A stretch of 43,204 nt of DNA from a virus, in IMG/VR virus record IMGVR_UViG_3300025276_000063, positions 1-43,204 of that record, one strand, 5' to 3'. Position numbers and translations under genes: made by a program. Each line of letters opens with the position of its first letter. The stretch's first letter is position 1. Below, one piece after another: positions 1 through 39,200 of the stretch. The notes beneath the pieces were generated by a model that did not search any database, was not told the DNA's origin, and saw only the letters and a list, made by a program, of their open reading frames with translations.

Positions 1-197
1 GAGTTCAAAAATATATCACTTAAAAATCTTTCAGAACCAGCAACAGTAAAATATGCAGGCACATCTACTTTTGTTTTTTTATTGTCTATAACATTGTTCC
101 AAAATATCCTATCATCTAAAGCATGTAGAGTTCCGACTATCAAATTACGGAATAAAACATCATCCTTATTTTGGTAATTATTGTAAGTTTCGCCCAT
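1..197 (-). CDS. 15: gp15-like tail sheath stabiliser/completion protein, N-terminal part (cut by window edge)
   Basis: The reading frame opens with ATG at 197 on the minus strand and is still open at base 1, giving 65 visible residues that start MGETYNNYQNKDD. The pattern of an aromatic/Asn-rich start, then LFRNLIVGTLHALDD, then a Val-Pro-Ala-Tyr segment and an E-R-F-L segment resembles the N-terminus of T4 gp15, which begins with YFYNSSFRRYATLMGDLF and continues to a VPITYASKEHF segment. gp15 caps the tail tube and sheath and joins the tail to the head. The first 20 bases overlap the 3' end of the endonuclease gene. A GATTAAATA element lies 35 nt upstream, inside that gene. The assignment rests on remembered family resemblance over a short segment, so it is moderate. 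Confidence 0.5.
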   Translation of the reverse strand, partial: MGETYNNYQNKDDVLFRNLIVGTLHALDDRIFWNNVIDNKKTKVDVPAYFTVAGSERFLSDIFLN

Positions 198-1131
198 AAT
201 TTATATTGTTACTTTCTAAATATTCCTTTAAGTATTTAATCTGTTTCAAACCATAGAACTTTGTCCATTCCTTTACAGATTTGTGTTTATTATTTATATA
301 CAAAAGTTTATTCCAAGTCCACCTACCTTTAGATAATGCGACTAACTCACCTGAGATATATCTAATATCATTTACAGATACTCTAAATTGGTTACCATTA
401 ATATCTTTTACTCCCACCATACCAGTAGTCAAATATACAAGTTCACCTGATTTAATTCTATTATCACATTTACTTACCGATAATATATTTCCATCTATAT
501 CTTTTACAGCAACTAAGTTTTTACTAACGTGTGTAAGTTCTCCGGACAAATATCTTTCGTCATCAATTGATACAACACGAATATTTCCATTTGAATCTTT
601 AGTTGTTACTTTACCTTTAGTATGACCAACTAATTCACCAGAAAGGTATTTCGGGTCATCAACTGAAACACTAAATTTATTACCATCAGTATCTTTCACA
701 ACAATTCTATCTTTATTTATAGGCATTAATTCACCTGAATTATATCTTGGATTATCAGTATCTACTTGTGAATTATTTCCATATTTATCTTTTACCACTA
801 CTTTATTTGCAGTATAAGTATGTCCTTGTTCAAATCCACAAGCACTATTTTTCAAATTATAAGATTCTTTTATATTTTTTAAATCAAATAAATTTAAAAA
901 TCTATCTTCATATTCATAGGCATCTTTTCTTGTTTGAAAGTATCTTAGTTTTTCAATATGAAAATTTTCTTTTCCATACTTTTTGATTGCCCTATCAATA
1001 GCAATACCAGAACCTAAATAGTCTTCTTCATCTGTGCCACTACCATAGTAGAACTTTTTATTAATAAGATTTGTTGTTTTGTAGAAGTAAAAAGGGGTTT
1101 CTTTACACCATTCTCGTGAGATTAAATACAT
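178..1131 (-). CDS. GIY-YIG homing endonuclease with five C-terminal SGEL repeats
   Basis: This is probably a free-standing GIY-YIG nuclease of the Seg/homing type. The N-terminal part carries FYFYKTTNLINKKFYYGS (the GIY and YIG strands, here as FYFY and YYG), DYLGSG, and the conserved RAIKKYGKENF segment with the Arg. A Glu-rich helix that should hold the catalytic Glu follows. The C-terminal two thirds are five tandem units of about 37 residues with the pattern VKDxxGNxxxVSxDDxRYxSGEL, which probably bind DNA. The frame also has an upstream ATG at 1179, but that start sits inside the loop of the hairpin that ends the gp46 operon. I therefore prefer the ATG at 1131, which directly precedes the GIY-YIG domain. 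The gene separates gp46 from a tail gene and looks like a mobile insertion. Confidence 0.8.
   Translation of the reverse strand: MYLISREWCKETPFYFYKTTNLINKKFYYGSGTDEEDYLGSGIAIDRAIKKYGKENFHIEKLRYFQTRKDAYEYEDRFLNLFDLKNIKESYNLKNSACGFEQGHTYTANKVVVKDKYGNNSQVDTDNPRYNSGELMPINKDRIVVKDTDGNKFSVSVDDPKYLSGELVGHTKGKVTTKDSNGNIRVVSIDDERYLSGELTHVSKNLVAVKDIDGNILSVSKCDNRIKSGELVYLTTGMVGVKDINGNQFRVSVNDIRYISGELVALSKGRWTWNKLLYINNKHKSVKEWTKFYGLKQIKYLKEYLESNNINYGRNLQ
233..241 (-). promoter_or_regulatory. GATTAAATA late-promoter-like element upstream of gp15-like gene
   Basis: The minus strand reads GATTAAATA. It lies within the 3' end of the endonuclease gene, 35 nt upstream of the gp15-like start at 197. It would let the tail gene be expressed independently of the nuclease. 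Confidence 0.5.
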
Positions 1132-1147
1132 TAGATTAATTATTTTT

Positions 1148-1191
1148 AAAGAAAGGGATAGGTACGTCAATACCGACAATTCCCTTTCTTT
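1148..1191 (-). terminator. Rho-independent-type terminator after gp46
   Basis: The arms AAAGAAAGGGA (1148-1158) and TCCCTTTCTTT (1181-1191) are perfectly complementary, with an inner GGTA/TACC pairing in the loop. The hairpin lies 10 nt past the gp46 stop codon on the minus strand and has U-rich distal stem bases, but no long U-run after it. Confidence 0.55.
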
Positions 1192-6219: not shown

Positions 6220-6798
6220 TTAATCTAATGAACCAAATTTTCCTTTGCCCATATCACTTGCAAAATCTCTTGAACCTTGCGATTGCAATTTAATGTAGTA
6301 AGAATCTGTTGCTTTTCCACCTCTACCAAAATAAGACTTCAACAGAAAAGTATCAATCGTTTTTGCTTTTTTATCTTTAAGAGTTTCTTTTAATGTTTTT
6401 TCAACCTCTTTTCTCCAATTTTTATCACTAGTGTCAATTTTAATACTTTGACTTGCAAATGTATCTAAATCAACCGGAACACTTATTGATGAAATTGTAT
6501 CTGGTAATTTATTAATTGCTTTTAATAAATCTTTTAAAGATTTACCTTCGGATTCAAATCCTTCGTTAATACTTTCTTTAAGTTCAACCATATTCATACC
6601 AACTATTTGCTCTGGTTTAATAGCACCATCGAATTCAATCGGTTCAATGTATACTCTTTTAGTACCGTTGTTAACATTAGTAACTTTATATTCCATGTCC
6701 TTTTCTGCCGGGTCATCTAAGTATTCATCTTTGATAGTAACAATACTACCTTCCTTAAATTTCTTTCCTTCGTTTAAAAATTCGTTTAATGCTTTCAT
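6220..6798 (-). CDS. Leader-bearing protein MKALNEFLNE with a second INE site
   Basis: The first ten residues, MKALNEFLNE, end in L-x-E and are followed by Gly, as expected for a prohead-protease site. Residues 11-60 (KFKEGSIVTIKDEYLDD...VYIEPIEF) look like a small KOW/SH3-like beta barrel. A second site, ESINE followed by G, falls at residues 75-79. Processing would therefore yield a barrel peptide (11-79) and a 113-residue C-terminal part (80-192) containing KTLKETLKDKKAKTIDTF and ending in GKFGSLD. The gene overlaps the next upstream gene by 4 bases. No enzyme motif is recognised. Confidence 0.75.
   Translation of the reverse strand: MKALNEFLNEGKKFKEGSIVTIKDEYLDDPAEKDMEYKVTNVNNGTKRVYIEPIEFDGAIKPEQIVGMNMVELKESINEGFESEGKSLKDLLKAINKLPDTISSISVPVDLDTFASQSIKIDTSDKNWRKEVEKTLKETLKDKKAKTIDTFLLKSYFGRGGKATDSYYIKLQSQGSRDFASDMGKGKFGSLD
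6769..6798 (-). repeat. 30-bp identical repeat encoding MKALNEFLNE, copy 1
   Basis: The first 30 coding bases of the gene starting at 6798 are identical to those of the gene starting at 7037. Identity at third codon positions points to recent duplication or gene conversion of the leader. Confidence 0.9.
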
Positions 6799-13198: not shown

Positions 13199-15922
13199 TT
13201 ACATATCGTAAAAAGGTTTTTCAGAGTTATCTATTCCTTCATTCACATTTCCTTTAAAATAGTTACAATATTCTACATGATTAACTTTCAAGAAACCTTC
13301 AACTAACTTTTCTATTGCGTAGTCATTCAATCCTTCCATAATTAAGAAAGGTTTTAAATGTCTTTTAATAAAATTACTTTCAAGTACATTGTCTTTGAAT
13401 TTATCAAAATCTAATATAGATTCAGTTAATTTAGAATCGTATTGAAAGTCTTTGAATTTTTGTAGTTTACTTTCAGAAATTTTAGATAAGAAAGGAATAA
13501 AATCTTTTTCGTCATTTTCTAATTCTAAAGTTCCCTTTCTAAACATCAAAATCTTTTCGAAAATTTTAACATTAGATTTTGTCAAAGACTGATTGTGTAG
13601 TTCTTCATCTAAAGATTCTCTCATTAATTGGTCGTGGTACATAACTAATTCATATGTATTTCCATCAACCCCTCTATTGTAAATAGAAATGTGTAAGTTT
13701 CCTATTGGTTCTTTTCCTTGTTTGTCTCGAAAAATAGTAATAGTTTTACTTTGCGTTTTACCTTTTTTTGGCTTAAAAAATGCATCACCAAATGCACCAA
13801 AAAATTCTTGTTGATTATAAAAATAACCATTGTCTTCTATGTAGTTAGCAACATTGTCTAATGTTGTACCATATCCAGCCGCATATGTAGGATATTCTTT
13901 TTTAAATTTTAATTTAGGTTTTCTTCCTTCGTTCACATTTTCTTGTAATTTTTCATGTTTCATCCACCTTTCGTAAAAGGCTTTTCCTGCATTCTTCATA
14001 TCCTCTTCAGATCTATATGCATCAAATGATAATCCTATTTTTAATAAGATTTCTTCTTTCTCTTTGATATTCTTTCTAGCTTTATATGCTTGCTCTGCCA
14101 TGCTCATTGACCACGTAGACTGATTCCTCCATTGTTCATTGAAATCTTTTTCGGTATACTTACCCCAATTTTTAGTATTTGTAGGAGGGTAAATACGGTC
14201 AAGAAAACCGGCATTTACTAATTTTTCAAGGTCAGATTTTTCATTCAATTCAGATTCTTTCATATTTATGGCATTTTGCATATTTTCTTGTAAATTTTTA
14301 GGTAAAGGAATTGATTGTTTGATTCGTTGTTTTCGATTGGTATTGTGATATACATCATCAGGTATTTCATATTCTATATATATAACATCTTGAATATAAT
14401 CCACCGCAATTCCTTTTATAGATTTTACTATTTCATCTATCTCTTTTTTATAATTCCAATATCTTTTTCTAAGGTATTCTTCAACATAATCATAAATTTG
14501 AGGTGTTGCTTGTTGAATATCTTCTTTATCTAAGTACTTTTTAATGGACTTAACTGCTTTTTTAAAGTTAAACTTTTCATTCAATTCAGATTCGTTCATA
14601 TTTATGGCATTTTGCATATTAATTGATAATCTGATAATATCGGCATAATCTTTATAAGTTAATCCGTAATTTTCGTCATTTTCTTTAGTACCAATATCGA
14701 ACATTTCTTTTGCTTGTTTTTCTATATTACCACTTTTGATTCTATATGTCCCCTTTCTTTTACCAGAATCCATAAATCTCATTTCGTCAGTATAATGTGG
14801 GTCTGTTGACCAACCAGAACTCTGGTCTACTTCAATAGAAAAATGAACTTCATCGTCATTTTTGTAAACAGTCCAACCATTTCCGGATTGATAAGTTTTA
14901 CCTTTTTTATATTTGATTGCTTCTTCTAAAGATAGCATATCTATATTGTATATTTCGGCTTGTTCCTTGATAAAGGTTAATTGATTTTTATCTTTACCGT
15001 ATTCTTTTTGTAATGATGAAATGTAATTCCTAAATATAGAACCTAAAGAATGCATTGCCGATTGTCTATTTTCTAATTTATCATCTGAACCGTTTTGTCC
15101 TTTAATTGCATTTATACCATCTACAAATCTATCATCCAAATCTTTAAGATATTCACTAAAGGTTTGTCTCTTTGACTTTTTTTCGTTTAATTCATAATCT
15201 AAAATAGATTCAACTATTAAAGCATCAGAAAATAAATCTTCACCATAAGATTCCAATATGTCAGAAATTGTATCTACATCTAAATTACAATCCATAACAA
15301 CAGATTCAATATCAACAGATTCGGCAAGTACTGCTGTATCTTCTAATTCATCTTTAAGTTGTTTGTAGTAAGGATGAATTTGTTTAGGTGTAAATTTTTT
15401 GAATTTCTTTTCATCACCATCTATAATTGCTTGTCTAACTTCGGTTCCTGATGTTAGTCTTCCTTTTAATTCTTGAATTGCAAAATCAGGATGCGTAGTA
15501 ATGTTTTTCATTCTCTTTGCCATCCCAGTATAAGTTTTTGCTCTATCTTCTCCGGCACCAATTAGAACTGGATTGTATCCTCTGCGTTGAGTTTCCATTA
15601 TAACAACCGGAATAAATGAACCGGTCATACTCCAGGCATCTCTAACTAAATCTTGACCTTTTGCAATATCATCCATATAGTTGATAGTCAAATTATCACT
15701 AAATTTAGAATTTTTTCCACTTTTACTTCTTATGTAAATATAGACCGATGGCAATCCATTAATTTTTTCTAATTCTTTGGCCATACCTAAATGTCCTATT
15801 GTGAATGGTTGATATCTTCCGATAACAACATTAACTGGTTCTAAATGGGATTGGTCATTTTCTGATTCCATATCTTTTAGTTCAGTAATTATATCTTTTT
15901 TTATAATATCTTCTTTTGCCAT
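13199..15922 (-). CDS. Apparent polyprotein: NMNAT/cytidylyltransferase-like domain followed by modules separated by [LV]NE sites
   Basis: Residues 30-195 form a HIGH-superfamily nucleotidyltransferase: GRYQPFTIGHLGM (the GRxxPxxxGH motif), GAGEDRAKT, and TSGTEVRQAI in place of the ISxTxxR motif. Family members make NAD or CDP/ADP-linked products. The remaining 700 residues have no enzyme I recognise but contain regularly placed prohead-protease-like sites: ELNE/K after 247, ELNE/K after 449, ELNE/K after 561, VNE/G after 665 and VNE/G after 895. Two of the sites lie in a 16-residue repeat (NMQNAINMNESELNEK, one change). The predicted pieces are about 247, 202, 112, 104, 230 and 12 residues. 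The N-terminus itself has no leader. An ATTAAATA element lies 18 nt upstream. Confidence 0.85.
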   Translation of the reverse strand: MAKEDIIKKDIITELKDMESENDQSHLEPVNVVIGRYQPFTIGHLGMAKELEKINGLPSVYIYIRSKSGKNSKFSDNLTINYMDDIAKGQDLVRDAWSMTGSFIPVVIMETQRRGYNPVLIGAGEDRAKTYTGMAKRMKNITTHPDFAIQELKGRLTSGTEVRQAIIDGDEKKFKKFTPKQIHPYYKQLKDELEDTAVLAESVDIESVVMDCNLDVDTISDILESYGEDLFSDALIVESILDYELNEKKSKRQTFSEYLKDLDDRFVDGINAIKGQNGSDDKLENRQSAMHSLGSIFRNYISSLQKEYGKDKNQLTFIKEQAEIYNIDMLSLEEAIKYKKGKTYQSGNGWTVYKNDDEVHFSIEVDQSSGWSTDPHYTDEMRFMDSGKRKGTYRIKSGNIEKQAKEMFDIGTKENDENYGLTYKDYADIIRLSINMQNAINMNESELNEKFNFKKAVKSIKKYLDKEDIQQATPQIYDYVEEYLRKRYWNYKKEIDEIVKSIKGIAVDYIQDVIYIEYEIPDDVYHNTNRKQRIKQSIPLPKNLQENMQNAINMKESELNEKSDLEKLVNAGFLDRIYPPTNTKNWGKYTEKDFNEQWRNQSTWSMSMAEQAYKARKNIKEKEEILLKIGLSFDAYRSEEDMKNAGKAFYERWMKHEKLQENVNEGRKPKLKFKKEYPTYAAGYGTTLDNVANYIEDNGYFYNQQEFFGAFGDAFFKPKKGKTQSKTITIFRDKQGKEPIGNLHISIYNRGVDGNTYELVMYHDQLMRESLDEELHNQSLTKSNVKIFEKILMFRKGTLELENDEKDFIPFLSKISESKLQKFKDFQYDSKLTESILDFDKFKDNVLESNFIKRHLKPFLIMEGLNDYAIEKLVEGFLKVNHVEYCNYFKGNVNEGIDNSEKPFYDM
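14238..14284 (-). repeat. 47-bp direct repeat inside the 907-aa gene, copy 1
   Basis: Matches 14574-14620 at 46 of 47 positions. It encodes the NMQNAINMKESELNEK segment around the third predicted cleavage site. Confidence 0.9.
14574..14620 (-). repeat. 47-bp direct repeat inside the 907-aa gene, copy 2
   Basis: The partner of 14238-14284, 336 bp (112 codons) away and in frame. It encodes NMQNAINMNESELNEK around the second predicted cleavage site. Confidence 0.9.
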
Positions 15923-16745: not shown

Positions 16746-17948
16746 TTACAAAGTCTTTTTCCATTCGCTGAATGTTAAGAATGCTTCGTTTACCTTTGAG
16801 GTTATATCTTTAACTTTACTAACAACTAAATTTATTTGATTTTTTAAATTATCATCAATTCTTTTTGTTTTTCTTTTTTTAAGTTTTCTAAAACTAGATA
16901 GTAAAATTTTAAATATTTCTTCCGAATCTTTATTTTTCTTTACAAAATCTACAACATCTTTACTTTTAATCATTTTTGTATTCAATGCAAATTCCGGTGC
17001 TTTTGCAAAATCTGGTTTTTTAATGTTAAGTCCTTTCAAGAAAGTTGAATTTTCATCAATGAATCTTTTTATTACTCTAGTCATTAAGTCTAAATATTTT
17101 TCATCTTCGTTTGAACCATCAGCAATAAAATCTTTGAATACATCACTTTCTTCTACCCAACCAATAAATGAATATAGGACTAATCCAAATTCATCGTTAG
17201 TATCTTGTTGGTTAACTCTTGCGTGTGCTTTATCTCTTGCCATTTGAGTAAACATTGGATCAACTACCTTTGCTAAATATTCGCCATCGTTGAACTTAAA
17301 AACTAAACCTTCAATCGGTTTGTCTAATGTATTGTTCAATGCTGTTTTCTTTAATTTAGGGTCCAAGATAGAAACAATAAACTTAGTAAAAGATGAAGTA
17401 TTAAATTCTTTTACTAAATCTTCAAATGGCGTTTTTAAAAAGTCTTCTAATTGTTCTTTTTGTAATTTACTCAATGCTCCATCAAAAATTATAAAAGGTT
17501 CTTCTACATCAAAATACTTTGACCACTTTTTTAAAGTTCTTGGGTCGTCAATAAATTTAACAACTTTACCTTTGTCATTCATTTCTTTCATATGTGTTAA
17601 GACTAATCCATTTTTTGGTAGTCTATCATATGCAATAGAAACTGGTTTTGTATTTTGAAAATACTCAAATCCAAATCTTAAATTGTCAGGTAATTTTTTA
17701 GAACCAACGATTTTTTGTATATATTCAATAGGTGGTTCATACAAAGACATTATAGTTCTATCCAATTTAGTTATTGGTTGTCTATCATCTCTTTTAAAGA
17801 AATCCATAGTACCTTCTGCATTTTGTTGTGCAGAAAAAACAGAACCATCTGGTTTTTCAGAAACTACTAATTTCTTATTAAAAAGGTTATTTATAAATTC
17901 TGAACCTTGTTTACTGTATATGTCGAATAGGTGTTGTAATCCTGCCAT
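16746..17948 (-). CDS. RNA-ligase-like covalent nucleotidyltransferase
   Basis: Predicted ATP-dependent polynucleotide (RNA) ligase. The motifs of the superfamily are in order: motif I as EKPDGS with the adenylated Lys at residue 32, motif III-like RFGFEYF near 91-97, motif IV as EGLVFKF at 213-219, and motif V as YLAKVVDP at 224-231. The C-terminal 160 residues are helical and basic (KKRKTKRIDDNLKNQ), a likely RNA-binding or specificity domain. It is next to a polymerase-beta-like nucleotidyltransferase gene, with only 19 bases between them, suggesting a shared job in RNA end repair. Substrate is not determined by sequence. T4 Rnl1/Rnl2 are the functional precedents, but it is not a close match to either. 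Confidence 0.75.
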   Translation of the reverse strand: MAGLQHLFDIYSKQGSEFINNLFNKKLVVSEKPDGSVFSAQQNAEGTMDFFKRDDRQPITKLDRTIMSLYEPPIEYIQKIVGSKKLPDNLRFGFEYFQNTKPVSIAYDRLPKNGLVLTHMKEMNDKGKVVKFIDDPRTLKKWSKYFDVEEPFIIFDGALSKLQKEQLEDFLKTPFEDLVKEFNTSSFTKFIVSILDPKLKKTALNNTLDKPIEGLVFKFNDGEYLAKVVDPMFTQMARDKAHARVNQQDTNDEFGLVLYSFIGWVEESDVFKDFIADGSNEDEKYLDLMTRVIKRFIDENSTFLKGLNIKKPDFAKAPEFALNTKMIKSKDVVDFVKKNKDSEEIFKILLSSFRKLKKRKTKRIDDNLKNQINLVVSKVKDITSKVNEAFLTFSEWKKTL

Positions 17949-17967: not shown

Positions 17968-18906
17968 TTACGAATTTTTTAGGTAAAATGCAAATTTTTT
18001 CATCTTAAAATCGAAATTTTCTTTTACACCTAATTCTTTAGGTAATGGTAAACCTTTTCTGTTGATAACATCTACAAAATAGTTAACAATTTTAGAAAGG
18101 TCTTTCTTCCAGGGGAAATCTTTCTTTTGCATTGCTTTCCAAACAGATTCAAACGAATTCGTATCTTTAATTGTTGCATCAATACCTAATAGCGATTTTG
18201 TAATTAGTTCAGGGTCTTTACTTATGAACTCTTCCCATTCACTCTTACCATTTTTTACAAGTTTACCTGTTTTTCCTACGTAAGATTTTATTTGTTTTTT
18301 ATATCCTTTGTTTGGGTCTAACATAATTCTACCCCGTTTCTTAATTTGTCCTTTATATTTTCCTTCGAATTCATCTTCCCAATATGTTGTAAGTCCTTCA
18401 TCAGTAACAGCATATCCAATAGCTTTCAATAATTCCGTTCTATATAAACCTTTCCAAGCTGATTCTTGTTTTGTAAAATCTGGGGAATGAAACATCCATC
18501 TAGCAAAATCAATGTTATCTTGTAGCATTAAATCAACTTGAACATTTCCACTACCACCTTTGATTGGATATGCTAATGAAAGTATTCCTAATCCATGCAT
18601 ATAGTTTTTATCCATTTTAGGATATGCAACATCTAGTAAATCTAAAATCTTTTGACCAACTTCTTCTTTTGAAATGTTTAAATTCTTTGCTATTGCACTA
18701 GTATCAATTGCAATATCAATATCTCCACTTGTTTGTCCGGGTAGTTTTTTCCCTGTTGAACCTAATGCGGCCCATTCTTTACCTTTAAGTTTTAGAAATC
18801 TAATTAAGATTTTCTTATCTATGTCTTTTAAAGTTGGCATAGTTTCCTCTGCTTTAATTGGCATTACGTTAGGAACTGCCTTTCCACCTTCGAATAATTT
18901 AATCAT
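17968..18906 (-). CDS. Polymerase-beta-superfamily nucleotidyltransferase
   Basis: The nucleotidyltransferase signature is clear: LGS at residues 48-50, then SGDIDIAID at 60-68 with the first two metal-binding Asp, and NVQVDLML with the third Asp at 125. Members add nucleotides to RNA 3' ends or to small molecules and proteins. The N-terminus MIKLFEGGKAVPN contains L-F-E followed by Gly, which also fits the prohead-protease rule, but this is weak because the motif is short. It lies just upstream of the RNA-ligase-like gene, and the two probably form one unit. A GATTAAATA element lies 19 nt upstream. The precise substrate is unknown. Confidence 0.78.
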   Translation of the reverse strand: MIKLFEGGKAVPNVMPIKAEETMPTLKDIDKKILIRFLKLKGKEWAALGSTGKKLPGQTSGDIDIAIDTSAIAKNLNISKEEVGQKILDLLDVAYPKMDKNYMHGLGILSLAYPIKGGSGNVQVDLMLQDNIDFARWMFHSPDFTKQESAWKGLYRTELLKAIGYAVTDEGLTTYWEDEFEGKYKGQIKKRGRIMLDPNKGYKKQIKSYVGKTGKLVKNGKSEWEEFISKDPELITKSLLGIDATIKDTNSFESVWKAMQKKDFPWKKDLSKIVNYFVDVINRKGLPLPKELGVKENFDFKMKKFAFYLKNS

Positions 18907-18990: not shown

Positions 18991-19848
18991 TTAGTACAAA
19001 TCTTTTAATGCACTTCTTAGTAATTTCATTATTTGCTTGTCTCTTTTATTAGTACTACCTGCTAATAATGCCAATGCTTCTTTAATAGAACCTTCTGCAT
19101 ATCCATCTTCATTCAATTTAGCTTCGTGCATTGATTCATCGTGTTTAAAAACAAGACTAAAAATTACACCGTCTTTGTCGATATCAATTTTACCGTCTTT
19201 ATGTAACTTTTCCATTTCTGATTTAGTAACAGATATTTCTGCAGTATCACCTTTTTCGTGTTCAAGAATGTTTCCATCCATGTCATACTCAGCTTCCGGT
19301 AATCCAGCAGCTTGTCTTAATTCGATATCATCAGCTTCGATAAAATCAGAAAGTGCTTCAAGTTCTGCAATTTCACCATAACTTAGGTCTTCTCTTCTTA
19401 AAGATTGTCTAATTTGTTCTAGTCTTTTTTTAGCGTCTTTTTCTTTGATTTTCTTTGCTTCATTTACCTTTTTTTTACTAGATTCGTTATAACTATCTTC
19501 TTCCATTTCATCGTCTTCAGATTCTTCTACCTCTTCGTCTTCAGATGAATATAATTCCTCTTTGTCTTTTCCTTTGTCTTTAGATTCGTAAGATTCTTTC
19601 TTAGCTTTCATTTTCTTAGAATCATCATCTTCTTCAGAATCATAATCTTCTTCAACTTGCTTTTCGTTTGTTGGTTCTTGTGTCCACTCTTTATCTATTT
19701 CATTAAAGAATTTCTTTTTGTCAGCATCAGATAATTCAGCTGGAGATTTAACATCAAATTTCTTTAATTTTTTATCAAAAAATTCTTGATATTCTTTTTG
19801 TTTTTTTGACTTTTCAGCTTCGTTTATAAAATTAGTTAACTTTTTCAT
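18991..19848 (-). CDS. Acidic leader-bearing protein MKKLTNFINE, probable internal or core head protein
   Basis: Leader MKKLTNFINE followed by Ala, an I-x-E/A site as in T4 internal proteins. Residues 11-55 contain EFFDKKLKKFDVKSPAELSDADKKKFFNE, a segment that I recall as recurrent in proteins of T4-like marine phages. Residues 66-128 are a very acidic low-complexity linker. Two further sites follow, KKVNE/A after 130 and KLNE/D after 247. Between them lies a conserved-looking region (LSYGEIAELEALSDFIEADDIELRQAAGLPE). The acidic, multiply cleavable design resembles scaffold-core or internal proteins. A GATTAAATA element lies 25 nt upstream, and a terminator follows. No catalytic motif is seen. 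Confidence 0.78.
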   Translation of the reverse strand: MKKLTNFINEAEKSKKQKEYQEFFDKKLKKFDVKSPAELSDADKKKFFNEIDKEWTQEPTNEKQVEEDYDSEEDDDSKKMKAKKESYESKDKGKDKEELYSSEDEEVEESEDDEMEEDSYNESSKKKVNEAKKIKEKDAKKRLEQIRQSLRREDLSYGEIAELEALSDFIEADDIELRQAAGLPEAEYDMDGNILEHEKGDTAEISVTKSEMEKLHKDGKIDIDKDGVIFSLVFKHDESMHEAKLNEDGYAEGSIKEALALLAGSTNKRDKQIMKLLRSALKDLY

Positions 19849-19873: not shown

Positions 19874-19882
19874 TATTTAATC
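19874..19882 (-). promoter_or_regulatory. GATTAAATA late-promoter-like element upstream of the 285-aa leader gene
   Basis: Exact GATTAAATA on the minus strand, 25 nt upstream of the start at 19848; its first base is part of the stop codon of the gene upstream. Confidence 0.55.
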
Positions 19883-20382
19883 TATTCGTTTATTGTAGTT
19901 TTGTTTATAACTCTTTGACCTAAATTAGAAAGTTTACAACATATTACACCATCTTTTTTAAATTCTTTAATGTATGATGAATTTTTATTAAACCAACTCA
20001 TACTAGTTCTAGAACCAGAATCTTCATTTTTTGATTGTATAAATTCTTTTAATTCTTGTTTAGTACAATGTCCTTTTTCTGCAATGAAACCTAATATGTT
20101 ATTTCTAACAGGGGCATTTGCACCAACTTTTATAGAATCATATTGACCGTATTTTCTTTTTACTTGTAAAGTTTTTCTTTCGTCAATCTTTTCTGGTAAA
20201 TTAGTTTCTTTAGTTTCAGCGTAATCTTTTAGTTTATCTTCTGGTAACTTTGAAAGTTCTATTATTTCATCGGACACATCATCTTCTAATTCTCCTCTTT
20301 TATATGCCAATGCCATACCGAATAATCTTCTTTGAGATTTTGACTTAGATGCTTCATTTAAAAATTCATTAAGTGATTTCAT
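19882..20382 (-). CDS. Leader-bearing DUF3008-like protein with winged-helix-like C-terminus
   Basis: Leader MKSLNEFLNE followed by Ala. Residues 17-66 (RRLFGMALAYKRGELEDDVSDEIIELSKL...LPEKI) match the pattern I know from DUF3008 proteins of T4-like phages (RxFGMxxAxxxGE...VKDFAxTKHxxLPEK). Residues 93-160 (NNILGFIAEKGHCTKQELKEFIQ ... GVICCKLSNLGQRVI) look like a winged-helix DNA-binding domain. The last residues are TTINE, so the protein also ends in an I-x-E site. It is a candidate for a packaged DNA-binding protein delivered with the genome. The gene is followed by the 285-aa leader gene. Confidence 0.78.
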   Translation of the reverse strand: MKSLNEFLNEASKSKSQRRLFGMALAYKRGELEDDVSDEIIELSKLPEDKLKDYAETKETNLPEKIDERKTLQVKRKYGQYDSIKVGANAPVRNNILGFIAEKGHCTKQELKEFIQSKNEDSGSRTSMSWFNKNSSYIKEFKKDGVICCKLSNLGQRVINKTTINE

Positions 20383-26837: not shown

Positions 26838-27355
26838 ATATTATCAATTATAAAATCTAAAGTATCGTCTTTTCCTTTAAGATTCTTAAAATACTTAGAA
26901 GAAATGTATTCATTTTTTAGATTGTTTTGATTATCGTATGCCTCTTTTTCCCAAGCCAGGTTTTTGTAATTATCGTAGTTTTTTTGTGCTTTTTTATAAT
27001 CTTTCACTGAAAGTTCTGTATCATCTTTCCATAAGACAGATTTCCAATCTTCGGATGGTCTAAGTTCACCATTTGTTATTTGTTTAACATGTGTTAATTC
27101 GTGTATCAATGCACCTATTATCATTCTATAACCTTGGTCCGGATTAAAATGTAATGTAAATTTACCTTTGTTCAAAGATGCGTCACTAAGTACAACATCT
27201 CCGATATGCGTATCAGAAAACTTTTTCTTTACTGTTATTCTATTAGGTTTGAATTTTAATTTATCTTGCATGAATTCAATAACAGAATCAATCAAAAGTC
27301 TTTCGTGTTTTTTAATCTTTTTATCTTCTTTAACAAATTCAAATAAGTATTGCAT
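26834..27355 (-). CDS. SprT-like zinc metalloprotease with possible leader
   Basis: The zinc-metalloprotease motif HELTHVKQ is at residues 85-92 (His 85, Glu 86, His 89), preceded by a hydrophobic helix GYRMIIGALI, as in SprT/Spartan-type and related proteins. A later acidic helix WEKEAYDNQNN may supply the third ligand. The N-terminus MQYLFEFVKE resembles the packaged-protein leaders but ends in V-x-E instead of L/I-x-E, so it is a weaker match. Overlap of 4 bases with the endonuclease VII gene and 1 base with the 342-aa gene places it in one late operon. Its substrate is unknown. Confidence 0.78.
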   Translation of the reverse strand: MQYLFEFVKEDKKIKKHERLLIDSVIEFMQDKLKFKPNRITVKKKFSDTHIGDVVLSDASLNKGKFTLHFNPDQGYRMIIGALIHELTHVKQITNGELRPSEDWKSVLWKDDTELSVKDYKKAQKNYDNYKNLAWEKEAYDNQNNLKNEYISSKYFKNLKGKDDTLDFIIDNI

Positions 27356-28383
27356 TAAAATAATTTTTTTGTTAATTCTTGGGCTAATGCAGCACTAACT
27401 ATTCTTGAAGTAAGAACATTAAAAAGTGGTCCTTTTTCTATACCAAGAACTCTTGCAATTGCTTTTCCAATTTTTGGCCCCAATGCAAAACCAGCTATAC
27501 CTCCCAATGCTCTACCCATTATTCCTTCGTTTAAAGATTCTGGGTCCGATATTACTTTTATTAACAATTCTACTTGTAAATTTTCTAAGACTTCAATATT
27601 TTTAGATATTATTTTATCCATTTTCTTTTTTAGAACTTTTTTATCCGTATCTAATATTCTTGAAATAGTATCTAAAGATTTTATATCTACTAATCCATTG
27701 TAACTAACTTCTAAATTAGTTAATTCGGGTACAATAGATGAAAAGTCTTCAGAACTTCTTTTTGACAATTCAGTTGCTAAAATTTGTATTAAAGTTGCTG
27801 GGTCCCCAAAATCGTTAATAGGAATATAAATTTCTTTTTCTGAAATAGTTTTATCTTCTTTAACTTTTTTGAATTTTTTCATTGAAATAGTCTTGGCGGG
27901 TTCTTGAACAGAAACTTCATCGTCTGCTGTTCCACCGAACACATCCCCACTACCTAATTTACCACCTACTTCGGGTATTTCAACTGCCCCCATTCCATTA
28001 ACAGAACCAGGTGTTGCCGCAAAATCATTCTCATTGAAAATTCCTAATTTATCTTGATTTTCAATTTCTTTTAGAATCAAAGCAATGTTATCGGCAATGA
28101 TTTCATTTGTTTTTTTACCACTACTTAAATTAGCAAGTTCTTTATTAATCTTGTTTATTTTCTTTCTAAGTTTACTATCAAAATGATTTGATTTATTACC
28201 TATTTGCATAGCTCTATTATAGTAGTCTTTTAGAACACCACTTGTAACTAAAGGATTTCTTTCATCTCTTGCAGCACTTTCTAAATCGTTTAGACCTTGT
28301 AAATACTTATCTAAGGGCATTTTCTTTTCTTCATTCAAACTATCGAATGAAATTGAATCGCGTATATTTTTAAATTTCTTCAC
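27355..28383 (-). CDS. 342-aa processed internal protein with releasable Gly-rich hydrophobic C-terminus
   Basis: The start is GTG at 28383. [LF]NE sites occur at DSLNE/E (after residue 18), IFNE/N (after 118) and ESLNE/G (after 286). The middle has a flexible Gly/Pro/Glu-rich linker (about 120-165) between helical segments. The last 56 residues begin GIMGRALGGIAGFALGPK and run through IGKAIARVLG to a hydrophobic helix, ending ELTKKLF. Glycine-zipper spacing (GxxxGG, GFxxGP) suggests membrane insertion. Cleavage after 286 would free it. A GATTAAATA element lies 16 nt upstream and overlaps the stop codon of the tail-tube-like gene. Confidence 0.75.
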   Translation of the reverse strand: MKKFKNIRDSISFDSLNEEKKMPLDKYLQGLNDLESAARDERNPLVTSGVLKDYYNRAMQIGNKSNHFDSKLRKKINKINKELANLSSGKKTNEIIADNIALILKEIENQDKLGIFNENDFAATPGSVNGMGAVEIPEVGGKLGSGDVFGGTADDEVSVQEPAKTISMKKFKKVKEDKTISEKEIYIPINDFGDPATLIQILATELSKRSSEDFSSIVPELTNLEVSYNGLVDIKSLDTISRILDTDKKVLKKKMDKIISKNIEVLENLQVELLIKVISDPESLNEGIMGRALGGIAGFALGPKIGKAIARVLGIEKGPLFNVLTSRIVSAALAQELTKKLF

Positions 28384-36211: not shown

Positions 36212-39200
36212 CTAAACCGTAGTTACTTTAGTAATAAAGGCAAGAGTTGCATTTCTATCACTTGGTTTATTATAAGTAAAGTTGAAATCAAAATCGCTAA
36301 ATTTTTGTTGAACAAATCTTATGTTTTCTAATTTAGTAAATCCATCTAATATTAATTCTTGTTCGGTTTTACTTGTTTCTAAAACCGGTTCATTCGATAA
36401 CTTAGAACTGTACTTTACATATGCATATATTTCTCTTGAAAAATATCTAGGTAAAATATTTGTTTTTATGTATCTTTCAATGTCATCATCAAAAGTATCT
36501 AATTTTTGAAAGTTATAAGTACTATTTACATATTTTTCAAATAATGGTTTTAAACTTGGATTAATAGTATCAATTAATTCTTGTGTGTTTTTTATTTGAC
36601 CCGAAACAATATTGTTCAAATTTATATCAATAACAATATTTGAAGAACTGTACTTTTCAATTTTTACATCATCCGGTATATTCATAATTGTAGACGCTAA
36701 AAAACTTTGTACTTCTTTAGGTTCAATATATCCCGGAAAACTTGTAAAATTAGTTTTACTATCATACTTTTTATGAAAATTGTGGTCCCAACAACTTCTA
36801 AAAATATAAGAATCTTGTTTATCAATAGAAATTTCTCCTACTTTCCAAAATTCTGGTCGTAGCGAACCCTCTTTGTTTAAATCTAATATAGTTAAAGGAT
36901 TTTGTTCATTAATTTTATTTATATATAATTGTTTATATAAACCAAATCCTGGATAAGTACTAAAGAAATTAGTATTTGTAAATCTTAATTGCTTTCTTAT
37001 TGCATCTGTAAATTTTGTATCAAAATCTTCACTAAAGTATATTACATCATTAACCTTTGGGTTGTATTTTCCATTGAATCTAAACATAGTTGAAAAATAA
37101 GTATTGTTCAATCCTACGGTTTTAGAACCTATTGGTTCAAAATTACTATTACTAACACCATTAAAAATAACGGGTTCGCTAGTTACATAATCGGCTTTTA
37201 CATTCATAGAATAATCTTCGAATTCTATTAAAAATGTATTTGTAGATGTTGCTCCCACTTCGTCTACTGTAAGATAATTAACATCAGCACTTCCGGTATT
37301 AACTTTATCAAATATAGAAGCAAAACTTATTTCATTTATTAAACCTTTATATGCATTAAATCCTCCTTTAATATATTTAGGTATTTTATCTAAACATTGA
37401 ATAGGTGTTGGATAAAGTGCAGAAAACGTTGGATCTAAAGGTATCTGTCCGACTAAGGTCTCATAATAAAATTCTCCAGCCGTAATAGTATTTTTACTTA
37501 CAGATTTAATTTTGTCTATAACTAATTTTGGTAAATTAGAACCTAAAAAGGTTGAAATTTCTATTTTGGAATATTCTCCATCTGAATTAGGTATAATTTG
37601 ATTTGTAAAATTGGGTAAAGAATTATTTGCTATATTTTGAGTACCATTTATTGTATATCCATCAATTGCGTTTCCTGTAAAATTTGGAACTTCACTAAGA
37701 ACCTCTCCTAAAAATGGAGAAATAGACCCGTTTAATTCCGTATCTGCATACAAATTGTTTGATGTAATATCAAATTTATCTTCTAAAATATACAATGAAC
37801 TTCTATCTAAAAGTAAAGCAGTTGCTCCATAATTTCCACTATTGTCATAGTTCAACCAATAGTCTTGCAACTTGGCTTCTATAATCATAGTTATAGTTTT
37901 GTATTTCTTATTTTCAATTACCGAATATTTTAATGCATTTTCTGTATTGTTAGTTAATATAGCACTAAATTTGTAATCATTGAATTCATCACTTTTGAAA
38001 ACTCCTATGTTTTGTATATTAGAATCTAATAGGGTATCATTTTCAACTCTTCTTTTGAATTTTATTTTAGAACCTCTAAAAAAAGTTTCAGCAAACGAAT
38101 CTTCGTTACCTCCGCTTATTATAGAATATTTTCTTTTTGCCGGGAAATAGTAATCACCTCCGGTTGCACCTACTTTATATTCAGTAAAATATTCTAAAAA
38201 TTTATCTTCCGTTACATCTTTTATACCTAAATCACTAGTAGCGCCTATTTCATAACTACCTTTTTCTATTGCATTTTCAAAATACGAAAACGCTTCAATT
38301 TTTTCTTTTGTAGTTAAGTAATATGGATATTTTTGTAGGTAGTACCATTCGTGTGTAAAGAATCTAAAATCAGGTAAAATGTTTTTAGAAGAAGGAGAAA
38401 AATTATCATAACTAAATGCACTATTACTAGTCATTCTGTAATTATTTTCTCTAACGTCTTTTCCGTCATCATCATAGACCCATTTATTAACATAAGGTAT
38501 AATTCTACCTTTTATAGATAATTCGGGTAATTCATTTTCTGAAAGCCTGTCGTATTCATTTGTAATGGTTGCAATATCGTTTGTTGCTTCATCTATTTTC
38601 CCTGCCAATCTTTTAAATCCACTGTCTTTGAAACTTTTTATTTGAAATGAAATGTTAAAAGCATTAGGATATACTTGGTTGTTTGAAGCATTTACACTCG
38701 TTCCACCTTTTTCGGTATAAAGACCATTTAATTTATCAATATATCCATCACCATCTTTTCCATAATCACTTCTGAATTGGTCAACATCAAATTGCTTAAT
38801 TGGATACATTGACATTAATCCAACTTTATTAGTTTCTATTTCGTATAATTCAGAATGAGCACCTTTAGATACCCAAACATTTCCTTCACAATTTATAGTT
38901 TTATAACTATCGAAATTTGTAAAATCTACTATTCTACCACTTTCGAAGACTGGCTCATCTAAATATGCATCAACAGAAACAATTTTAGAATACCAAGTTT
39001 GTGTTTTCAAAAACAAAGAAGTATTAAAGTAACTACTAAATTCAATAGGAATTCTTATTTTATTTTCACTTACATTATTTCCGTTTGTTAAATTACTTTC
39101 TAAAATAGAAAATGATGGGCTAATAAACATAGATGCAGAACTTGAAACAATGGCATCGTAATCTAAAAATGCGGGCCCTGTTGAACCTTGTGGTCCAGGT

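Follow-up and report, generated by a model that had tools for sequence, protein, structure and literature searches.

Polyproteins are characteristic of many RNA viruses, and the locus described here raises the question of whether a tailed phage may also encode one, in this case a chain of proteins destined for its own head. The window, meaning the whole stretch of 43,204 nucleotides that was analysed (IMG/VR record IMGVR_UViG_3300025276_000063), is a 43-kb fragment that probably comes from a marine T4-like virus of bacteria, as its T4-type replication and tail-region genes suggest. Near its gp43 and gp45 homologues, both replication genes, lies a single minus-strand ORF of 907 amino acids with an ATG start (13199-15922), and the plus strand across this interval is full of stops. 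An earlier note on this DNA described it as an apparent polyprotein with five prohead-protease-like sites, and the exact residues were confirmed: ELNE/K at 247, 449 and 561, and VNE/G at 665 and 895 (a slash marks the presumed cut). An additional motif, MNE, stands at residue 444. The six products expected in that note need revision: several site-bounded pieces are indeed predicted, but the module boundary SLEE/A (334/335) had been missed, and site 895 would free only 12 residues. Cuts at the five named sites and at 334 would, by computation, give six pieces of 10-28 kDa and a 12-residue tail. The modules are as follows:

13199-15922, minus strand: polyprotein ORF, 907 aa, with seven relatives in IMG/VR
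15182-15922, minus strand: module A, residues 1-247, NMNAT-like nucleotidyltransferase, motif residues invariant in nine phage proteins
14921-15181, minus strand: module B, residues 248-334, replaced in G004 by an unrelated module exactly at ELNE247
14576-14920, minus strand: module C, residues 335-449, beginning after SLEE/A and recurring in L067 and L069
14240-14575, minus strand: module D, residues 450-561, a tandem pair in G002/G003 with each copy behind NESELNE/
13928-14239, minus strand: module E, residues 562-665, known from this phage only
13613-13927, minus strand: module F, residues 666-770, predicted compact alpha-beta domain (about 677-765), from relatives and a model
13238-13612, minus strand: module F2, residues 771-895, helical C-terminal part, from comparison and a model
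13202-13237, minus strand: residues 896-907, 12-residue tail after VNE/G, from comparison with relatives

DNA comparison also confirmed the repeat that had been reported around two of these sites. Two copies of a 47-bp element, identical at 46 of 47 positions (one mismatch), lie 336 bp apart:

14574-14620, minus strand: repeat copy ahead of module D (site 449)
14238-14284, minus strand: repeat copy ahead of module E (site 561)

The corresponding 16-residue protein repeat begins at residues 435 and 547. It is the end of module C together with its site, copied ahead of module E, and represents a module linker, not a standard MKxLNEFLNE leader. The [LIVM]NE motif occurs six times in residues 15-907, against 1.3 times in same-composition shuffles (p about 0.001), and its density is 0.76 per 100 aa in residues 248-770 compared with 0.12 in ten replication proteins (same window). 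A weight matrix derived from leaders, tried as a site predictor, did not set the ORF apart (Fisher p 0.23). Motif enrichment alone is only modest and by itself does not justify speaking of a polyprotein.

Comparison with relatives shows how the sites behave over evolution. An IMG/VR scan yielded five loci and further scans two more, giving seven relatives with ORFs of 908, 1006, 1006, 843, 828, 621 and 687 aa; the polyproteins of G002 and G003 are identical. The enzyme and the C-terminal parts are common to the relatives, and the intervening modules differ. Using stringent ungapped segments from the four distinct closest proteins, 16 of 44 segment ends fell at most two residues from an [LIVM]NE site, against 1.6 expected and a maximum of 8 in 20,000 random draws; these 16 breakpoints are not independent, since a junction shared by several related proteins is counted in each of them, and about six distinct junctions underlie them. 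The alignments argue strongly that the sites coincide with homology breakpoints between relatives. Homology between G000 and G004 stops exactly at ELNE247, and in pairs with G001 and G004 it stops at 548-550 (LQENMNE). It resumes at about 664-665 (NE/GRKP) behind four different upstream contexts, and another set of ends lies at 892-896. Two breakpoints carry no NE motif, one at about 329, just upstream of SLEE/A, and one at about 770, where there is an insertion; other segment ends away from sites include ordinary sequence divergence.

The relatives exchange, duplicate or lose pieces at these sites, which bears out the earlier proposal that the sites delimit modules. Module D is doubled in G002, two extra beads lie between D and F in G001, and one of these is present in G004. 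In G007 the enzyme is joined straight to module F through EDMNE/A, with modules B-E missing and the later beads present. Module F stands behind NE/G, NE/A or NE/K in relatives with differing upstream modules, and is absent in G006. Its own junction at 665 varies, with INE or MNE in relatives where VNE, which fits the site type less strictly, stands here. At the tail position G002 carries a 51-residue module, and G001 and G004 stop before site 895; the 12-residue tail is the stump of that module. Together, the alignments show that recombination close to or directly at the sites has exchanged beads. With a cutting site on either side, a bead could be replaced, doubled or deleted and the neighbouring beads left unharmed. 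Searches for the polyprotein in GTDB genomes and for the C-terminal region in INPHARED phages found none, and module E searches returned no relative. When the ORF was scanned with Pfam, PHROGs and PADLOC, the sole match was a weak one to a nucleotidyltransferase, with no effector or peptidase domain and, from PADLOC, no defence-related match.

Structure prediction had been suggested as a check on whether the sites fall in linkers. AlphaFold2 applied to the whole ORF with seven sequences gave a pLDDT of 39.8 and was unusable except for module F, which alone is confident (residues 677-765, pLDDT about 71-86). Owing to this poor full-length fold, accessibility was judged for sites 665 and 895 only, and both are compatible with linkers: in a model of residues 666-907, both termini are of low confidence, covering residues 666-676 just behind site 665 and residues 891-907 on either side of site 895. 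A fold search of this model against PDB and BFVD gave no match at E<=0.001. Module F2 has weak local similarity (E 5e-4) to the DUF3008-like leader protein encoded at 19882-20382.

That leader protein belongs to a larger set. One pattern identified 55 leader genes with 23 distinct leader decamers in these phages, and the leader genes show fusion, insertion and middle-swap at sites, like the polyprotein. Examples from the window are:

6220-6798, minus strand: two-module leader protein of 192 aa (MKALNEFLNE/ and, further on, ESINE/GFESEGK), from comparison with relatives
18991-19848, minus strand: leader protein MKKLTNFINE/, whose G002 version has a bead inserted between duplicated AKLNE sites
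19882-20382, minus strand: leader protein, a fusion of two genes that G007 has as separate adjacent leader genes

The G004 counterpart of 6220-6798 has 123 aa and consists of the second module alone behind a leader. A three-module gene differs in its middle between G002 and G004, and in G005 and G006 its third module forms a leader gene by itself. The earlier suggestion that leader-bearing genes were fused in frame with their sites kept is supported by this comparison, but the 16-residue repeat cited for it is not a standard leader. The enzyme end of the polyprotein lacks a canonical MKxLNEFLNE leader. A candidate weak leader site at residue 14, IITE/L, is kept in G000-G003 and reads ISE in G005 and G006; the motif is lost in G004, and the region is absent in G007.

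Module C extends the pattern to distant polyproteins, where it recurs between sites in L067/L068 and L069; the L067 and L069 ORFs have no enzyme. In L067 it stands behind LESITE/A and ends with MNE/S, and inspection by eye relates the next bead to the one replacing module B in G004, with the order reversed. In L069 it stands behind ESVNE/G. This ORF also holds, about 125 residues in, a complete internal leader, NQMKYIKPIGE/AKRG, which resembles the leaders of neighbouring genes there (MKHIKPLYE, MKHIKSKAIFE and MKYIESVLNE) and represents a leader retained within a fused gene. The first bead of L069:1792-3843 resembles a head-gene-record domain of haloviruses, Roseobacter phages and Salicola phage SCTP-2 (<=62% identity).

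Several further enzyme genes were observed at these loci. The window keeps a ligase-like protein (16746-17948) and the nucleotidyltransferase (13199-15922) as separate genes. At G010:34522-36381 (minus strand, L084 region), an in-frame fusion unites an RNA-ligase-like protein (KIDGS) with a nucleotidyltransferase, and the L084/G010 junction between them, MNFNQYLSNKKISTQISPITE/A, looks like another internal leader. A 925-aa ORF at G008:29541-32318 (minus strand) combines a leader-like MNTIGDWIVKQIVTE/, a nucleotidyltransferase, several beads, LITE/G and a second ligase-like enzyme (KTDGQ), which is a separate leader gene in G010 (36381-37652). The window's ligase-like protein (minus strand, KPDGS), for which phmmer found no PDB relative, ends in most relatives with a conserved segment behind a site-like motif (SKVNE/AFLTFSEWKKTL); this segment may be a C-terminal targeting tail. 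Adjoining its gene, 17968-18906 (minus strand) encodes a Pol-beta-like nucleotidyltransferase motif (GSTGKKLPGQTSGDIDIAID); a similar-looking motif occurs in S-CREM2 ORF156, which is also in the virion proteome, the likeness being one of motif appearance only. By visual inspection, 178-1179 (minus strand) encodes an apparent endonuclease of GIY-YIG type in which VKDxxGN motifs recur.

The window fragment, which is without the head region, contains no protease or gp23 gene, and relatives provide the information on both. An S77 prohead protease scored above the Pfam cut-off in G002, G004 and G005, and S77 was also found in G008 and G010. The ORFs of the first three, 541-626 aa long, join the protease to a site-rich, scaffold-like second half:

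G002:20373-21998: S77 protease and scaffold-like region in one ORF (Pfam)
G004:31086-32729: S77 protease and scaffold-like region in one ORF (Pfam)
G005:53039-54919: S77 protease and scaffold-like region in one ORF (Pfam)

Near residue 50, gp23 reads GGLNE/NNFYATPG in G002, GELNE/NNFYATPG in G004 and a diverged LMENNAYATLG in G005, and its position suggests that gp23 is cut at this point in the relatives. The LNE sites of the polyprotein match both the leader decamers and this gp23 LNE/N site. The T4 protease gp21 cleaves behind L/I-X-E, and the length of T4 propeptides ranges from 7 to 65 residues (PMC9026906). Elsewhere in the window, 27355-28383 (minus strand) contains a stretch, FAATPGSVNGMGAVEIP..GSGDV, like the arm just after the relatives' presumed gp23 cleavage site (E 6.5e-9). 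A scan for T4 late promoters (TATAAATA) gave fewer matches than shuffles did and was uninformative. In G005, uvsW, gp43, gp41 and other core genes are split by inserts resembling inteins or homing endonucleases.

Profile similarity supports the proposed NMNAT-like nucleotidyltransferase at the N-terminus. Module A comprises a core at about residues 30-195 with GRYQP-TIGH, GAGEDR and SGTEVR, which correspond to the NMNAT/HIGH-type motifs GxFxP..(H/T)xGH and S(S/A/G)T..R, followed by a helical, acidic C-terminal stretch; the core motifs GR-P-GH, G-DR and S-R are invariant across nine phage homologues. A profile of nine sequences matched archaeal NMNATs in PDB, namely 1f9a at E 4e-8 (local, 59 positions) and 1ej2 at E 8e-5 (positions 6-157); it replaced a 5-sequence profile whose PDB matches were spurious. 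PF01467 matches eight of the nine family members at E<=0.01, and the NMNAT equivalog NCBIfam TIGR01527 scores 17.6 bits, below its cut-off of 181.2. No curated NMNAT cut-off is reached, and the enzyme is called NMNAT-like only. The S-SM2 cyanophage homologue finds 560 phage records. Four cyanophage homologues start with a leader (MKNFSSFLTE/, MKSFSQFLTE/, MKKFSAFLNE/ and MKSFFQFLSE/), and the annotation of a fifth record, S-8S53, shows none. Mass spectrometry of virions identified the S-CREM2 homologue by three unique peptides; its authors, who noted possible carry-over, suggested that the enzyme enters with the virion and has an NAD role as infection begins (PMC10665884).

From these observations, the ORF probably encodes a head polyprotein that the prohead protease cuts into an NMNAT-like enzyme and about five small cargo proteins, which would then be ejected with the DNA. 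The chain, observed as one ORF, would be synthesized whole and enter the prohead core, targeted by residues 1-14, an internal bead or core affinity. There an S77 (gp21-type) protease would cleave the chain behind (L/I/V/M)-N-E and at a small number of similar sites, as suggested by the motif, the boundary behaviour and the relatives' protease, releasing the nucleotidyltransferase (28 kDa) and about five small proteins (10-27 kDa). By parallel with T4 and the cyanophages, these products may be packaged with DNA and delivered to the host. NAD chemistry by the enzyme would be the weakest step.

The same ORF could instead be a scaffold-like head-core protein, chopped like T4 gp22, gp67 and gp68 so that its fragments leave the prohead, with no function after maturation. 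In T4, cleavage of the core proteins gives several fragments, most of which exit the head (PMC9026906), and the scaffold half of the relatives' gp21 is full of sites. However, [LIVM]NE occurs only about once per 100 residues of the polyprotein and nowhere within module F, [LI].E is found about 4 times per 100 aa in the scaffold part versus 1.5 in residues 248-770, and aromatics make up 12% of the polyprotein, as in globular proteins, versus 7-8%. With nucleotidyltransferase motifs conserved, and modules that are swapped in one piece and occur on their own as leader proteins too, we regard such a role as quite unlikely.

It also seems unlikely that the chain remains uncut as one multidomain protein of the polyvalent kind, with the NE motifs serving as linkers or short recombination tracts. 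Shuffled polyvalent proteins of 2-15 domains have been described (PMC5512222), breakpoints at repeated linkers would arise from recombination between short shared tracts alone, and cleavage here is deduced. Yet the junction motif, unlike an arbitrary linker, matches the same phages' leaders and gp23 site, the flanking DNA differs between junctions, and some modules are also separate polypeptides behind a leader. A third reading, in which the protein is an ordinary NAD-metabolism enzyme of the cytoplasm whose C-terminal extension varies and which has no place in the virion, would suit the neighbouring replication genes, and nucleotidyltransferases for NAD synthesis are known in jumbo phages (PMC7824862); given that the cyanophage homologue has a leader and was detected in virions (PMC10665884), that leader genes adjoin and that sites lie within the extension, we find this very improbable.

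The preferred reading, a polyprotein cut in the head, resembles several known systems and departs from each. As with T4 IPI-IPIII and Alt, which have a capsid targeting sequence and gp21 cleavage, the neighbouring genes have short leaders ending in L/I-x-E, relatives have an S77 protease, and the small cargo proteins change fast. Unlike the T4 internal proteins, which are single-product genes with one N-terminal cut, the polyprotein has at least five sites, exchangeable beads and a first bead without a clear leader. The cyanophage cytidylyltransferase/NMNAT-like virion protein (S-CREM2 ORF154, with homologues in P-SSM2, S-SM2 and ACG-2014a) shares family and motifs, but stands as a gene of its own, encodes about 290-425 aa headed by an N-terminal leader, and lacks the B-F module string. 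Polyvalent proteins (Iyer et al. 2017, PMC5512222), likened to polyproteins by their authors, are also shuffled and multidomain, and are presumed to be carried along with the DNA of phages or plasmids; the release of these proteins is ascribed to peptidase domains within them, whereas the sites here match an external prohead protease. SPN3US head proteins (PMC10052503) likewise undergo multiple prohead-protease cuts after a short motif ending in Glu, but the extra cuts break up an N-terminal propeptide and leave one mature protein per gene, where the polyprotein would give several products. The earlier note had considered an NMNAT-headed internal polyprotein non-standard. An NMNAT-like enzyme in phage virions is already published, and its delivery by phage is in print through the S-CREM2 virion detection and its authors' proposal (PMC10665884); full-text literature searches, with subscription literature covered in part, found no tailed-phage head polyprotein cut at prohead-protease sites. 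The new part would be a cargo polyprotein delimited by protease sites and evolving by module exchange, on the theme of the T4 internal proteins.

On balance, we favour the view that prohead-protease polyproteins form an exchange system for injected cargo in some marine T4-like phages, with constant enzyme beads (NMNAT-like, RNA-ligase-like) and a payload that evolves by cassette exchange at the sites. If so, a chain of several cargo proteins cut by the head protease would represent another genetic route to virion loading, and would explain how a multi-protein payload reaches the head behind one targeting event. It would also offer a rule, cutting after xNE, for spotting mature cargo proteins inside large hypothetical ORFs, and the functions of the injected proteins would become testable bead by bead.
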